A DNA stretch of 35,372 bases from Desulfobacterales bacterium (lineage in GTDB: Bacteria > Desulfobacterota > Desulfobacteria > Desulfobacterales > SKZT01): the NCBI GenBank assembly GCA_018399715.1, contig JAGYNR010000014.1, positions 1-35,372 on the forward strand. Direction: 5' to 3'. The position numbers and the translations under genes were made by a program. The notes beneath the pieces were generated by a model. That model did not search any database. It saw only the letters and a program-made list of their open reading frames with translations, and was not told the origin of the DNA. Below, piece by piece: positions 24,182 to 32,221 of the stretch; positions within the stretch are counted from its first letter, which is position 1; the number at the start of each line of letters is the position of its first letter.

Positions 24182-25462
24182 ATGAATCAAAAAAGTTCGA
24201 AAAACGATCTGACCACTGAGGAGATATTACGATTCCGAAAACTGGAAAACATTTTTCTCAGTCGCTGCCGTCATTTCGGTTATAACGAAATTAAGACATC
24301 AACTATCGAGCCGCTCTATATTTTTACCGCTCTGGGTGCACTTCGGGATGCCAAATTAAATCGCATCTATTCCTTTATTGACTGGGATGGCTGGAGTGGT
24401 GAACGAGTCGCATTAAAACCTGATTCTACCCCCTGTGTGGCCAGATACTGGGGCAATCATTTTCCCAACGATAACAGCAAACATAAGTTTTGCTATGTGG
24501 AAAATCATTTTGAATGGGCCGATTCAGGAGATTTCATTACGGAGCGATGGCAATGCGGTGTGGAAAATATTGGTTCGCAAAATCCTGAAGCGGATATAGA
24601 GATTATTTACATGGCATTGGACATCCTTCGAAACGTAGGACTGAAAAATACTTATCTTTTCTTGTCCTATCCTTCTATCATCCAGCAAATGGTTGATGGA
24701 TTTTCCCTGGACCCCTCCTCGGAGAAAAAAATTCTTGGGACCATTCGGGAAGGAAAAAATTACAAGGATATGCTGGTACAGTTGTCTGTAGAACCCGAAA
24801 AAGCAAAAGAACTGGAGACGTTTCTATCCGTTCCCAGTGAATCTGCCAACTATTCAGCCAATTATCTGGAAAATTTAAAATATGCACTAAATAACAGTAC
24901 TTGGAAACGAATCGCAACGATGATGGAAAATTTTATTTCCATCTGTAGGCGGCTGGATAGTCTGGAATGCCAATACATCATCGATTTTAACCTCCTGGGA
25001 GATCTGGATTATTATACCGGTGCAAAGTTCCAGATATTATCTTCCCCCACCAGAAAATCACGAAAAGATATTTTATCCTCCGGCGGAAGATATGACAATC
25101 TGACCGGTAATATGTGGGAACTATCCGATACAGTGCCGGCGGTCGGTTTTGCTTTGTTTATCCGTAATATAATACCATTTGTATCGACCATATCCGATAA
25201 ATTCCAAAATATCTGTATTCAAATCAGCAATATTTCCCGACGCAATGTCTGCAAGGGACAATGGCTGTGTGATAAACTTTTTTCTTTGGGGTTTGCCGCT
25301 ATGATTTCATTTTCCAGGGTCAAACCGGAAGATTTTAATAACTTCGGACTGGTCATCGATGTGGATTATGATCAATATCCCGACGGTTATCGTGTGCTGA
25401 GTAGCCAAAAAATTGGAAAACTTCTTTTAATGAATCTTTTTGGAGAATTCAATGACAGTTGA
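24182..25462 (+). CDS. HisZ-like / HisRS-paralog protein (ATP phosphoribosyltransferase regulatory subunit-like) with a C-terminal extension
   Basis: ALKPDSTPCVARYWGN, FNLLGDLDYYTGAKFQI, SSGGRYDNLTGNMWELSDTVPAVGFAL match HisZ/HisRS catalytic-fold motifs; motif 2 arginine pattern not retained (EWADSGDFITERWQCG). ATG at 24182 with gagagg RBS. Confidence 0.82.
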   Translation: MNQKSSKNDLTTEEILRFRKLENIFLSRCRHFGYNEIKTSTIEPLYIFTALGALRDAKLNRIYSFIDWDGWSGERVALKPDSTPCVARYWGNHFPNDNSKHKFCYVENHFEWADSGDFITERWQCGVENIGSQNPEADIEIIYMALDILRNVGLKNTYLFLSYPSIIQQMVDGFSLDPSSEKKILGTIREGKNYKDMLVQLSVEPEKAKELETFLSVPSESANYSANYLENLKYALNNSTWKRIATMMENFISICRRLDSLECQYIIDFNLLGDLDYYTGAKFQILSSPTRKSRKDILSSGGRYDNLTGNMWELSDTVPAVGFALFIRNIIPFVSTISDKFQNICIQISNISRRNVCKGQWLCDKLFSLGFAAMISFSRVKPEDFNNFGLVIDVDYDQYPDGYRVLSSQKIGKLLLMNLFGEFNDS

Positions 25463-26129
25463 TACCATCAGCGTTTGTCTGCCGAAAGGAAATCCCATAA
25501 AACCATTGGCGGCTTACCTCGAACAAGTCGGTTTTCCGGTCAGGGAATATCACTCCAAAAATCGGACTTACCGTCCCCCGGTAGACCATCTTCCGGTGAG
25601 AGCCAAAATTATGGCGGAAAAAGATGTTGCCATCCAGGTATCCGTCGGTAATTATGATATTGGATTTTGCGGTTTAGACTGGACCAAAGAACTGATTGAT
25701 AAGTACCGGGGCAGCAACCTCCATATATTTAAATATATGGGAATAGACCGCAGAAAATTATTTGTCTGCTCAGGGCTCAGCAGCCGCTTCAACAGCATAA
25801 CCGAACTTAATAACCATCAAGCGTTTATCACCATTATTAGTGAATATCCTAACCTTTCAGAGCGTTTTGCCATGAAAAACCGGCTGAAAAAATTTAAGAT
25901 TTTTTCCGCATGGGGAAGTGTCGAAGCTTATCCTCCGGAGCACGGAGACATTGTCATTCTTTCATCCTACGAAAAGGACAGCCTGGGTGAAATGGGACTG
26001 GTTCCTATCAGCTGTGAACTGGAATCCCAACTGTGCCTGCTGGTTAATCGCACCAGTTTCGTGGAGAAAAATCTGTCACCGGTTCTTGATTATTTCAGCG
26101 GCATTAATTCTTCAGGAGAAGAAAAATAA
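25452..26129 (+). CDS. HisG-like protein 1 (ATP phosphoribosyltransferase catalytic-subunit paralog, degenerate PRPP loop)
   Basis: ISVCLPKGNPIKPLAAYLEQVGFPV...YDIGFCGLDWTKEL...SAWGSVEAYPPEHGDIVILSSYEKDSLGEMGL aligns with HisG GSVELAP..ADAIVD.VSTGxTL..NGL but lacks TGxTL. Overlaps the HisZ-like gene by 11 bp. Confidence 0.78.
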   Translation: MTVDTISVCLPKGNPIKPLAAYLEQVGFPVREYHSKNRTYRPPVDHLPVRAKIMAEKDVAIQVSVGNYDIGFCGLDWTKELIDKYRGSNLHIFKYMGIDRRKLFVCSGLSSRFNSITELNNHQAFITIISEYPNLSERFAMKNRLKKFKIFSAWGSVEAYPPEHGDIVILSSYEKDSLGEMGLVPISCELESQLCLLVNRTSFVEKNLSPVLDYFSGINSSGEEK

Positions 26130-26130
26130 A

Positions 26131-26877
26131 ATGACAGTAGCCGAAAAGCTCAACCTGGCCTTACCCGACGGCCATCTGATGAATCACGTTTTACCCTTTA
26201 TCGATAGGTCCGGACTGGCTTTCAAAGGATATGACCAAAACAATATGATCCGGAGACCGATTCTGCGAACTGTAACAGAACAAGCCGGCCGAATGATTCC
26301 GGAGCCGGACAAGATAGCCACAAAAGTCATCCGTCCTCAGGATATGCCTACCCATGTGGCAAATGCCAATTTCGATTTAGCCATTTCGGGTACTGACTGG
26401 CTTGCCGAACACCTCCAGCGGTTTCCTAAAAGCCCGGTAATGGAAAAACTTCGTCTGGGGTTTGGCAAAGTCCGGATTGTTGCAGCCGTCCATGAAAAAA
26501 TGGGAGATAATATCAAGACATTTATCAGCTTTTTCCGAAAAGAGCACAAAAACAGCAAGCTCAGAATCGCTTCGGAATATGTATACATCGCCGATGCTTT
26601 CGCTCAGGAAAAAAAGCTGCATCCTTACCGGGTCATTATGACATACGGTGCTACCGAATCGTTGATCCCTGAAGATTGTGATATGATTATCGAAAATACG
26701 GAAACCGGAAATACCCTCCGGAAAAACCAACTAAAAATCATTGAAACTTTGGATATCCTGGGAACACCCTGGTCTGAGGGATGCCTGATCACCAGTTCGG
26801 ACAGCCTGAAAACAGATTGGAAACGCGACATCATTGAGGCCATCACTAGGCTTTTGTGTCGGGAAGCAGTATATTGA
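26131..26877 (+). CDS. HisG-like protein 2 (ATP phosphoribosyltransferase paralog with TGxTL retained)
   Basis: LNLALPDGHLMNHVLPFIDRSGL...FDLAISGTDWLAEHL...TYGATESLIPEDCDMIIENTETGNTLRKNQL. ATG 26131 directly after the HisG1 stop, RBS aggaga. Confidence 0.8.
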   Translation: MTVAEKLNLALPDGHLMNHVLPFIDRSGLAFKGYDQNNMIRRPILRTVTEQAGRMIPEPDKIATKVIRPQDMPTHVANANFDLAISGTDWLAEHLQRFPKSPVMEKLRLGFGKVRIVAAVHEKMGDNIKTFISFFRKEHKNSKLRIASEYVYIADAFAQEKKLHPYRVIMTYGATESLIPEDCDMIIENTETGNTLRKNQLKIIETLDILGTPWSEGCLITSSDSLKTDWKRDIIEAITRLLCREAVY

Positions 26878-28312
26878 ATTTTTCCCGAATCTTCGCATCC
26901 GCCGCTGTTGAAATACATGGACTTTCCGGTTCATTGAGGATCTTTTCTGCGATTTCCCGCGCCCGTTGCCTGGCATCCTTGCTCCCTTCGGATTCCCATT
27001 TTACGCGACTTTTGCGATCACTTACCCCACTACCCTGAAAATATTCTGTCCGCATATAGTTTAGCGTATGAGGAGACATCATGAAGTTTCCACCGGGTCC
27101 GATGCTATCGATAACTTCCATGCCCAGGTGGTCAGCATCGACATCAATTCCCCTCAACACTTTACAGGCCATCCCGATAATTTCATCATCCATCACATAC
27201 TGCTCATAGGCTACGGTCAGCATTGATTCCATCATTCCGGCAGAATGATGCATATAGTTGGAACCACCCATTGCGCCCAGAAGAATAGTCATCGCTTTTT
27301 CCCATCCGGCCTGGGCATCGGGAATTTTGGCATCCACCAATCCGGCGGAATTGTAGTTGGGAACCTGGATATGCGCTGCCATCTGATGAATGGCTGCATT
27401 CATCATGCCGCATTCCACCCCGCCCCCCAGATATCCCATTGTATTTAAATTAGCCATACCGGGAATGCCGCCGTAAAGCAATGGTGCACCGGGTTTTGTC
27501 AATTGGCAGACCGTTATACCGGCAAGCTGTTCGGCATGAACCAGTGCCAGAGTTGCCGCCATGGTAATGGGGGCTGTCGAGCCTGCCATGGGCGCACAGG
27601 AAAGGGCTACAGGAATTTCATTTCGATTACATTCCTGCATGATTTTTGTGGATTGGGTACAAAATTTAAGCGGTGAAATGGCAAAGGAGGTAATGACCGA
27701 AATAAAGGGCTTTTCCCTCAACTTTTCTTTTCCGCCGGCAATAATAGCGGCCAAATCCATAACGTTGTGAACACCGGCTTCATCATTTACCCCGGACATA
27801 ACGTGTTTCCGGGTACCGTTGAGACAGGCGTAATACATGTTCACATCGTATTCGGACTCCGGAATATCTGTGGGGATACAAGGCCGAACGAAAAAATGGA
27901 TATGGTTGAGTTTATCCACTAACCGCCCAATTTGATAAATATCAGTTAACGTACTGGAACGGGCCTGACCGCTTTTTAGATCCAACACTTTAATAGCAGC
28001 TCCGCCGGTTCCAATATGCACTTTGTCATTGGTGAGATCAAGGTTATTATCATCTTCCCGACCATATAAAATTACCTGCCGGGGCGCTTTTTGAATTTGT
28101 TCTGATATCAGGTTCCGGGGGAAAAATATTCGAGATTTGTCTCTTTTAACTGTGGCCCCGGCCTTTTCGAGCATCTTTAGCGTTTTTTCAAGACCGGCCT
28201 CATACGTCATCCCGGTTTTTTCTAGAATGGTCAATGCAGTATCATGTATCGTTTGAATATTTTCCGGTGAAAGAGGTCTATAAATACCGCCGGTCAGTCC
28301 TTTTAAATACAT
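26846..28312 (-). CDS. Trimethylamine methyltransferase (MttB) superfamily protein, non-pyrrolysine type
   Basis: 488-aa uninterrupted ORF: IHDTALTILEKTGMTYE...LYGREDDNNLDLTNDKVHIGTGGAAIKVLDL...APMAGSTAPITMAATLALVHAEQLAGITVCQLTKPGAPLLYGG...DAQAGWEKAMTILLGAMGGSNYMHHSAGM. Confidence 0.92.
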   Translation of the reverse strand: MYLKGLTGGIYRPLSPENIQTIHDTALTILEKTGMTYEAGLEKTLKMLEKAGATVKRDKSRIFFPRNLISEQIQKAPRQVILYGREDDNNLDLTNDKVHIGTGGAAIKVLDLKSGQARSSTLTDIYQIGRLVDKLNHIHFFVRPCIPTDIPESEYDVNMYYACLNGTRKHVMSGVNDEAGVHNVMDLAAIIAGGKEKLREKPFISVITSFAISPLKFCTQSTKIMQECNRNEIPVALSCAPMAGSTAPITMAATLALVHAEQLAGITVCQLTKPGAPLLYGGIPGMANLNTMGYLGGGVECGMMNAAIHQMAAHIQVPNYNSAGLVDAKIPDAQAGWEKAMTILLGAMGGSNYMHHSAGMMESMLTVAYEQYVMDDEIIGMACKVLRGIDVDADHLGMEVIDSIGPGGNFMMSPHTLNYMRTEYFQGSGVSDRKSRVKWESEGSKDARQRAREIAEKILNEPESPCISTAADAKIREKFNILLPDTKA

Positions 28313-29311: not shown

Positions 29312-30391
29312 ATGATTTCCGGACATGGAGGAAATATTCATGAAATCGCCGGCCGGCTAAGATGTCTTCCTGCCGATATTATCGACATGAGCAGCAATGT
29401 CAATCCTTTGGGTCCCCCCGGTGGCTTTTTGGATTTTTTGACGGAAAATCTTTATATGATTACGTCACTTCCCGAAGCCAATGCCGGCACCATTAACCAT
29501 GATTTTGCCGCCTACTACGGACTTCAAACCGATACGGTGCTAGCGGGAAACGGCACAACTCAATTCATATACTTACTTCCCAAGGTTCTGAATAGCCGAA
29601 AGGTGCTCATTGTCGGACCTACCTATGCAGACTATGCGGATTCATGCCGAATGCACGGCATACCGTTTGAGTTTTTCATGACCACGGCAGCAGAGAAATT
29701 TCAGGTTGATTTCAATAAACTGGAGAGTAAACTGGTTGAGGTGGATACGGTATTTATCTGCAATCCCAACAACCCTACCAGCACCCTTATTCCGGTCCAA
29801 TCCCTGGAAAATCTTATTATCAGGCACCCAGATGTTTTTTTTGTTGTCGATGAATCCTATTTGCCTTTTGTTCCCGACCATAACCGGCTCAGTCTGCTCA
29901 AAAATCAATCGGACAACCTGGTTATTTTAAACTCTATGTCGAAAATTTTCGGAATTCCGGGGCTTAGAATCGGCTTTGTTATCGCATCCCAAAAAATAAT
30001 ACAAAAAATTTTAGCCTACTATCTTCCATGGAGTGTCAACAGCCTTGCCCAGGCTGCTGTATCCTATTTGATGAACCATAAGCTGACCGTCGACAAGTTT
30101 ATACAAGTGTCTCAAACATATTTAGAGATAGAAAGGACTCATTTTTTACAAAATTTTGCCTGCACTTCCAGGATTCTTTTTTTTTCCGGTCCAACATCGT
30201 TTATCCTGGGAAAACTTTCGGATATGAACGCAAACGAAGTTTGTGAACGTCTTGCCGGAGAACGAATCCTGATCAGGAACTGTGATAATTTCGAGGGCTT
30301 GTCCCACCGTTATATTCGAATATCTTTGAAAACCAGCGATATAAACCGCATGGCGGCTGAAAAACTATTACAGGTCATCATGTCTTTGTAA
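29312..30391 (+). CDS. Threonine-phosphate decarboxylase / HisC-like aminotransferase (CobD/CobC type)
   Basis: MISGHGGNIHEIA...DMSSNVNPLGPP...FICNPNNPTSTLI...VVDESYLPFVPD...SMSKIFGIPGLRIGF. HGGN start plus cobS/cbiB context. Confidence 0.88.
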   Translation: MISGHGGNIHEIAGRLRCLPADIIDMSSNVNPLGPPGGFLDFLTENLYMITSLPEANAGTINHDFAAYYGLQTDTVLAGNGTTQFIYLLPKVLNSRKVLIVGPTYADYADSCRMHGIPFEFFMTTAAEKFQVDFNKLESKLVEVDTVFICNPNNPTSTLIPVQSLENLIIRHPDVFFVVDESYLPFVPDHNRLSLLKNQSDNLVILNSMSKIFGIPGLRIGFVIASQKIIQKILAYYLPWSVNSLAQAAVSYLMNHKLTVDKFIQVSQTYLEIERTHFLQNFACTSRILFFSGPTSFILGKLSDMNANEVCERLAGERILIRNCDNFEGLSHRYIRISLKTSDINRMAAEKLLQVIMSL

Positions 30392-30452: not shown

Positions 30453-31406
30453 TTGTTGAACACAACTGTCATATGTCTGATGATTCCGGCAGCATTTATT
30501 CTGGATATTATTTTCGGAGACCCTCAATGGAAATATCATCCGGTGCGGTTGATGGGAATTGCTATCCAAAAAACCGAACCTGTTTTCAGGGATATTCCTA
30601 TTCCCTTGGTGGTTTCGGGAGCAATTTTCGCCACCGGATTGATCGGTATGACTTTTTTACTTTCTTTTGCGGCAATCAATATTCTTTGTGCCCTCTCCCC
30701 CGTATCGGGATTTATTCTGGAAACGATTTTAATCTATTTTTGCATTTCCGCCGGAGCCCTGGAAAGGTCCGCGCGAGACGTTTTTCGCTTCATTATGCAC
30801 CGCCGCATTACGGAGGCCAGAAAAAAACTGTCCATGATTGTGGGAAGGGATGTCAAACATCTGGATACCACTGCGCTGACTCGTGCAACCGTTGAGACCG
30901 TTGCCGAAAACTTAGTTGATGGTGTTATTGCCCCGATCTTTTTTGCAGCTATCGGTGGCGCACCATTGGCATTAACGTATAAAATGATTAACACTTTAGA
31001 TTCCATGGTAGGATATAAAAATGAACAATACCGTGAATTTGGTAAAATTTCCGCCCGAATCGATGACATTGCCAATTATGTGCCGGCACGGTTGTCGGTT
31101 CCCGTTATCTTTGTTGCTGCCTGGATTTTATCCCAAAAAGGATCTGATGCTTTGATAACCGCCAAAAAAGACGGACGGCAGCACACCAGTCCCAATGCCG
31201 GATATCCGGAAGCTGCATTTGCAGGTTCCTTGAATATAAGGCTGGGGGGCCCCAGTTATTATGGAGGAAAAATGGTAAAAAAATCCTTTATCGGAGATGA
31301 TTTTGCCGATCCTGAACCCTATCATATCCAAAAAGCCTGTGACGTGATGATCTTATCATCAGCTCTGTGGGTTGTTTTTCTTTGGGCGATCACCCTGTTT
31401 GGTTGA
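30453..31406 (+). CDS. cbiB: Adenosylcobinamide-phosphate synthase (CbiB/CobD family)
   Basis: FILDIIFGDPQWKYHPVRLMGIAI, LSMIVGRDVKHLDTTALTRATVETVAENLVDGVIAPIFFAAIGGAPLALTYKMINTLDSMVGYKNEQYREFG, TSPNAGYPEAAFAGSLNIRLGGPSYYGG. Start probably TTG 30453/30456 after aggagg; the ORF extends to ATG 30429. Confidence 0.93.
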   Translation: MLNTTVICLMIPAAFILDIIFGDPQWKYHPVRLMGIAIQKTEPVFRDIPIPLVVSGAIFATGLIGMTFLLSFAAINILCALSPVSGFILETILIYFCISAGALERSARDVFRFIMHRRITEARKKLSMIVGRDVKHLDTTALTRATVETVAENLVDGVIAPIFFAAIGGAPLALTYKMINTLDSMVGYKNEQYREFGKISARIDDIANYVPARLSVPVIFVAAWILSQKGSDALITAKKDGRQHTSPNAGYPEAAFAGSLNIRLGGPSYYGGKMVKKSFIGDDFADPEPYHIQKACDVMILSSALWVVFLWAITLFG

Positions 31407-31417
31407 AAGGCAATTAT

Positions 31418-32221
31418 ATGATCGATACTTATCCGGAACTTCACAAATCCTACAAGAAAAAATTTCCGTTTAAATTATGCACCACATCCTTTATCTATCC
31501 GGCAAATTATATTCAAAACATTACAATGCTGGGTCCTTATGTGGATGAAATCGAACTGCTTTTCTTTGAAAGCCATCCTGAAAATGGCCTTCCTGTGGAA
31601 AAGGAAATGAGCGAACTTGCTGAAAAACTTGCCGAGTTCAATCTAAGTTGTAATATTCATCTTCCATTAGATATTTCACTAGGAGATTCAGATTCACAAA
31701 AACGCAGACATGCGATACAAACAATTAAAAGATTACTGCCAATAACTAATCCCTTGTTTCCAACAACGTATACTGTTCATTTCACTTATGAAGAAAATGA
31801 AAAAACATCAAAAGATATCGCAAACTGGCAGAAAAGGGTCATTGACAGTATGGGTGAAATTCTCGGTGACGGTATACCAGCAAGCCTTTTTACCGTGGAG
31901 AATTTGAACTATCCTTTTGAATGGACTGAAGATATTATTGACCGGCTACAGCTTCGGGTTTGTATCGATATCGGCCATTTTATCACCAGAGGAGAGTCTT
32001 TTGAAGCAGCATTTGAAAAACACCGCAGCATTACTGATATCTTCCATATTTGCGGAGTATCGGGAAAAAAGGATCATCTTTCCCTGGAAATTCTGGCAGA
32101 AAATCATCGCTATCCTCTATTAAGGATGTTGAAAAACTTTTCCGGCATCGTTTCTTTGGAAGTTTTCTCTTTTCAACACCTGGAAAGTTCCCTTGTCGCC
32201 CTGGAAAAAATGATGGCCTAA
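31418..32221 (+). CDS. CbiR-like cobamide-remodelling phosphodiesterase (xylose-isomerase/AP-endonuclease-2 TIM-barrel fold)
   Basis: FKLCTTSFIYPANYIQNITMLGPYVDEIELLFFES, NIHLPLDISLG, TVENLNYPF, VCIDIGHFITRG, FHICGVSGKKDHLSL; positioned directly after cbiB. Confidence 0.8.
   Translation: MIDTYPELHKSYKKKFPFKLCTTSFIYPANYIQNITMLGPYVDEIELLFFESHPENGLPVEKEMSELAEKLAEFNLSCNIHLPLDISLGDSDSQKRRHAIQTIKRLLPITNPLFPTTYTVHFTYEENEKTSKDIANWQKRVIDSMGEILGDGIPASLFTVENLNYPFEWTEDIIDRLQLRVCIDIGHFITRGESFEAAFEKHRSITDIFHICGVSGKKDHLSLEILAENHRYPLLRMLKNFSGIVSLEVFSFQHLESSLVALEKMMA

Follow-up and report, generated by a model that had tools for sequence, protein, structure and literature searches.

The window analysed here, a stretch of 35,372 nucleotides from a Desulfobacterales contig (JAGYNR010000014.1), contains three tightly packed genes on the + strand, and the coordinates of the open reading frames together with Pfam and NCBIfam matches confirm their initial description, made from the sequence alone, as one HisZ and two HisG-like genes. 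The first gene (24182–25462, with its ATG at 24182 and its stop codon ending at 25462) encodes a HisZ-like protein of 426 amino acids. The second (25452–26129, ATG start) and the third (26131–26877) encode HisG-like proteins of 225 and 248 amino acids, which we call A and B. The HisZ and A genes overlap by 11 bp, and a single base (26130) separates A from B. When the three proteins were compared with profile models, as the sequence-only reading had advised, both A and B exceeded the cut-offs of the HisG models—PF01634 (4.9e-17 and 62.7 bits for A, 5e-31 and 108.2 bits for B; curated cut-off 25.5) and TIGR00070 (84.3 and 107.5 bits, respectively). The HisZ-like protein matched PF13393 (tRNA-synt_His) above its curated cut-off (2.9e-41), and its best HisZ model in NCBIfam was TIGR00443, at 155 bits, below the cut-off of 272. 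Judged by their lengths, neither A nor B has a C-terminal regulatory domain, and a HisZ gene adjoins them, which is the arrangement by which short-form HisZ–HisGS is recognized. The window holds no other committed histidine biosynthesis gene, as had been claimed; the aminotransferase gene at 29312–30391 belongs to a CobS/CbiB cluster.

The HisZ of the trio is a dead paralogue of histidyl-tRNA synthetase (HisRS), predicted to serve as a scaffold and regulatory subunit. In 10 of 10 trio HisZ proteins two Arg residues are lost, that of class II motif 2 and that of RGLxYYTG, both of which are retained by HisRS proteins from these genomes or from related ones; YYTG and GGRY are kept in HisZ. On this residue pattern, it is very unlikely that the trio HisZ works as a synthetase, and a separate HisRS is present in several trio genomes (G002, G195, G258, and Magnetocorallium).

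In the short-form enzyme of Psychrobacter arcticus, Arg56 of one HisGS subunit crosses the dimer into the active site of its partner, and the R56A substitution lowers the rate 42-fold (PMC9734150). The gamma-phosphate of ATP is bound by Arg73, which corresponds to Arg70 in A. baumannii (PMC10795190). We located these reference residues on the sequence from A. baumannii by the offsets in numbering, with its KGR, SRK, and LRASD motifs as landmarks, and counted columns in an alignment of A (12 rows), B (11 rows), and 60 single-gene HisG proteins, canonical ones included. The cross-dimer Arg is present in A in 12/12 rows, in B in 0/11, and in 58/60 single-gene HisG proteins; in A of the window it is Arg38 (25563–25565, +), an assignment made both from the column table and from an ungapped phmmer alignment, and its context, NRxYRP, is strict in the main clade. 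The ATP-binding Arg has the opposite distribution. It is missing from every A, where Ala or Ser takes its place in 12/12 (Ala55 in the window, 25614–25616, +), and is kept in 11/11 B (Arg68 of RPQDMP, 26332–26334, +) and 60/60 single-gene HisG proteins. Likewise, the PRPP loop (TGxTLxxN) occurs in none of the 11 A rows that reach it and in all 11 of B, and its Thr is found in 60/60 single-gene HisG proteins; by alignment and column table, the window's B carries the intact loop TGNTLRKN (26704–26727, +) and its A the degenerate SSYEKDSLGEMG (25962–25997, +). The Lys of LPKG is kept in 12/12 A (Lys12, 25485–25487, +), and all 11 B have Asp instead, in an LPDGH motif whose Asp13-Gly14-His15 (26167–26175, +) replaces KGR/KGS. 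Arg32 was also considered as a marker and dropped, as the single-chain HisG proteins of the phylum mostly have Ser there.

Each paralogue thus appears, from the alignments, to have lost what the other kept, with two qualifications. The Arg56 column is ambiguous in B, where phmmer opens a 2-residue gap to align the Arg of RRP, a motif that lies two to three residues further downstream, and MAFFT places L, M, I, N, or P. Moreover, the change from Lys to Asp does not fit a simple exchange: since LPDGH of B is without the Lys (and the Arg/Ser) of LPKGR/S, and the Lys of A would not obviously reach the B site, the reciprocity is not fully accounted for.

An AlphaFold model of B (pLDDT 84) has as its best PDB matches the short-form HisGS structures 11te and 6fca (target-normalized TM up to 0.86), and the matching structures are HisGS from Bordetella, P. 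arcticus, and A. baumannii. The model of A was poor (pLDDT 44, from a 7-row alignment) and was left unused; the HisG fold that we assign to A is the one indicated by its HMM and profile matches.

In a maximum-likelihood tree, A forms one clade (100/99), B forms another (99/93), and the two are sisters (95/91), next to which stands the single HisG of two related genomes, G158 and G171 (99/96). The tree is made of in-phylum rows plus one reference and has long branches, especially in A, whose stem (1.4) is longer than that of B (0.47). On this topology, A and B are best read as sister clades from one old duplication. Each clade includes members of the window's order and of a family elsewhere in the phylum (f86), and with two orders in both clades the duplication would be older than the divergence of the two orders, or else the genes were transferred together as a block. 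Grouping with canonical HisG, which had been put forward for checking, was not seen: in this set of in-phylum rows and one reference, A, B, and the single HisG form a clade apart from the 4 classical HisGS rows. Between genomes G001 and G002, dN/dS is ~0.10 for A and 0.04 for both B and HisZ, with synonymous sites near saturation, and A has ~70 invariant columns; these values indicate that A is under purifying selection and is not decaying.

The 12 trio genomes searched have no other HisG. The window's own assembly (77% complete) contains only two HisG domains, those of A and B, and a dedicated search for a third in 12 trio genomes and the two with the related single HisG found none in any trio genome. 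These 12 include Desulfonema magnum 4be13 (NZ_CP061800, one contig of 8.0 Mb), G001 and G195 (each 99% complete), and Candidatus Magnetocorallium (G768). Among 146 relatives, nearly all non-trio genomes have a canonical HisG (E ~1e-43 to 1e-48), whereas trio carriers have only the divergent pair. The PR-AMP cyclohydrolase HisI, which works two steps after ATP phosphoribosyltransferase, was found in 10 of the 12 trio genomes, the exceptions being the window's genome and G230 (89% complete). Among the seven tested for further steps, all have HisA/HisF-family genes, six have HisD (G001, G002, G008, G041, G094, and D. magnum, G115), and four have a canonical imidazoleglycerol-phosphate dehydratase (IGPD), with a tandem version in G001 and G002; in the window's 77% complete genome, HisI, IGPD, and HisD were not detected. 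The trio is rare in the window's order (8 of 390 genomes), and A had no match in 72,556 plasmid records, a search for spread by plasmids. The order HisZ–A–B recurs in at least ten genera and so is not a matter of chance. D. magnum was isolated in a defined, vitamin-supplemented mineral medium; in the literature searched, we found no paper documenting its growth without amino acids. In two further genomes, G026 (96% complete) and G040 (93%), neither Pfam nor the B profile revealed a HisG, although HisI and HisD are present; the cause would be gaps in the assemblies or else another replacement.

Because the pair is the sole HisG of the trio genomes, most of which have downstream histidine genes, the trio is almost certainly the ATP phosphoribosyltransferase that opens the histidine pathway in these sulfate-reducing bacteria—a known enzyme in an unusual form, rather than part of a new pathway. 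Synthesis of PR-ATP is the only economical reading, with ATP as the presumed substrate. We propose, with a probability of roughly 0.65, that the trio is a split ATP phosphoribosyltransferase, in which an A:B heterodimer sits on HisZ and has one composite active site per pair. The complex would catalyse ATP + PRPP → PR-ATP + PPi in an architecture like that of the short form, with HisZ as scaffold and regulator, through which feedback would act, and with the usual HisGS homodimer replaced by an obligate A:B heterodimer. B would supply the PRPP-binding loop and the Arg for the ATP phosphate, and so bind both PRPP and ATP; Arg38 of A would cross the dimer interface and stabilize the leaving pyrophosphate in trans, a role matching the known trans contribution of Arg56; and, the cleft of A itself being dead, one composite site would be left per A:B pair. 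The sequence-only reading had suggested an allosterically rewired complex, and a modified form of that idea is supported, in that A and B separated long ago, are under constraint, and have lost catalytic residues in a complementary fashion.

The main rival keeps catalysis within a B:B homodimer, with the RRP Arg of B replacing Arg56 and A reduced to a pseudoenzyme with a regulatory role, which would bind HisZ or a nucleotide and add nothing to the active site. The position of RRP near that of Arg56, and the phmmer alignment that joins the two through a short gap, speak for it, and Lys12, kept in A, could mark a ligand site in the cleft of A itself. We consider it unlikely, if by no means far-fetched, since A retains precisely the trans-acting residue in 12/12, surrounded in the main clade by a strict NRxYRP motif, and the distant B of G230 has Lys for the first Arg of RRP (NKRP). 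That A and B each form a homomeric enzyme of their own, with only the operon in common, seems very improbable to us: each is HisG-like on its own, but no full-length A has a PRPP loop, which makes a stand-alone phosphoribosyltransferase of this fold unlikely, and the genes stay strictly adjacent and in the same order. Least credible of all is that A is a functionless duplicate in decay, which its stem branch, longer than that of B, might suggest, as A is intact across two orders, with the low dN/dS and the invariant columns given above.

The sequence-only reading had also raised phosphoribosylation of a substrate other than ATP, which might be the lower-ligand base of a cobamide or another nucleobase, and had itself named, as part of what would speak against it, that these are the only hisG and hisZ genes of their genome; for hisG this proves to be so in the window's genome and in 11 more. 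The strong divergence from canonical HisG, the altered LPDGH of B, and the cobamide genes downstream would all suit such a substrate; even so, we regard it as improbable, because no HisG besides the pair exists in genomes where HisI, HisD, and HisA/F are retained, B keeps the Arg for the ATP gamma-phosphate, and other trio loci are without cobamide neighbours. Upstream of the trio in the window lies a FloA/NfeD cluster, and downstream are a convergent MttB-family gene (26846–28312, − strand), which overlaps the end of B by 32 bp, and a cluster of CobS, aminotransferase, CbiB, and TIM-barrel genes. The FloA/NfeD neighbour is common only to the window's own family, and no other trio locus that was read shares the cobamide genes. 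Elsewhere, to go by names read off translations and not by family searches, the trio adjoins a lipocalin-like gene, ATP sulfurylase, MutS, and others, and in Magnetocorallium it directly follows hisS. Since its neighbours are not common to other trio loci, the link to the cobamide and MttB genes is rejected, and this neighbourhood is incidental and uninformative. No Rfam leader or attenuator was found near the trio at the gathering threshold.

Among described systems, the trio is closest in architecture to short-form HisZ–HisGS (P. arcticus, A. baumannii, Lactococcus lactis, and Thermotoga maritima), with which it shares a HisZ that is a dead HisRS, the lack of a C-terminal regulatory domain in HisG, and, for B, the fold. 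It differs in having two paralogues with reciprocal loss of active-site residues where the short form has one HisG; there, HisGS is a homodimer within a hetero-octamer with HisZ4, whereas the existence of an A/B pair argues against a homodimer. The short form is also subject to feedback inhibition by histidine and to activation by HisZ. The long form, HisGL, which is the HisG of most relatives in the order, belongs to the same catalytic family, presumably performs the same reaction, and has a WGATE..P..AD-type motif resembling that of A and B; unlike them, it is one chain of ~290 amino acids with its own regulatory domain, and trio genomes do not have it. The nearest single-gene relative of A+B is the HisG of ~255 amino acids in G158 (L141:4586-6917) and G171 (L140:6378-8735), one gene instead of two, with all catalytic motifs present. 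It lies beside a HisRS-like gene of ~515 amino acids, which in G158 keeps the synthetase Arg residues, unlike the HisZ of the trio. In the literature searched, no precedent for a two-HisG system or a pseudoenzyme HisG was found.

A HAD–IGPD–IGPD fusion replaces canonical HisB in G002 (L085:3690-5609) and at loci L087, L089, L090, and L091, and is also found in G001 and other relatives. It occurs in 12 of 390 genomes of the order, three of these matches spanning only the IGPD–IGPD part, and in G002 the gene lies within the order hisB–hisC–hisD–hisS. Its first IGPD domain has lost the N-terminal HHxxE block and kept the C-terminal one, and its second shows the reverse. As with A and B, a protein of the histidine pathway has been duplicated here and the copies have lost complementary catalytic motifs, partly in the same genomes; unlike A and B, this HisB is a fused single chain, a different enzyme, and differently distributed. 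By its motifs, it would be a parallel case of the same logic within the same bacterial family. We think it rather probable that a homodimer became an obligate heterodimer through reciprocal loss of active-site halves, and that HisB/IGPD took the same route in this lineage.

Textbooks present ATP phosphoribosyltransferase as an example of allostery, and artificial mutants serve to study its half-site behaviour and the Arg that acts in trans. If the split reading is true, nature offers an enzyme with the halves of its site on different genes, so that the role of each half could be tested cleanly, and a clear case of the evolution of a heteromer from a homomer by complementary degeneration. There is also a consequence for annotation, as A alone resembles a defective HisG, which could lead to a false prediction of auxotrophy.

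Three minor observations concern the surroundings of the trio. Rfam PYLIS_3, the pyrrolysine insertion sequence of mttB, matches the window at 27241–27340 (−) with 60 bits, within the MttB-family gene, whose open reading frame has no in-frame TAG; the match is probably due to homology in the coding sequence, the gene being a relative of MttB without pyrrolysine. Close to the trio of D. magnum (L039:7906-8771) lies a tandem repeat array (translation FRRNDK..SENLDMDSC). Directly after cobS-cobD-cbiB in the window, a gene at 31367–32221 (+) encodes an AP_endonuc_2 TIM-barrel protein, which we take to resemble the cobamide-remodelling enzyme CbiR.
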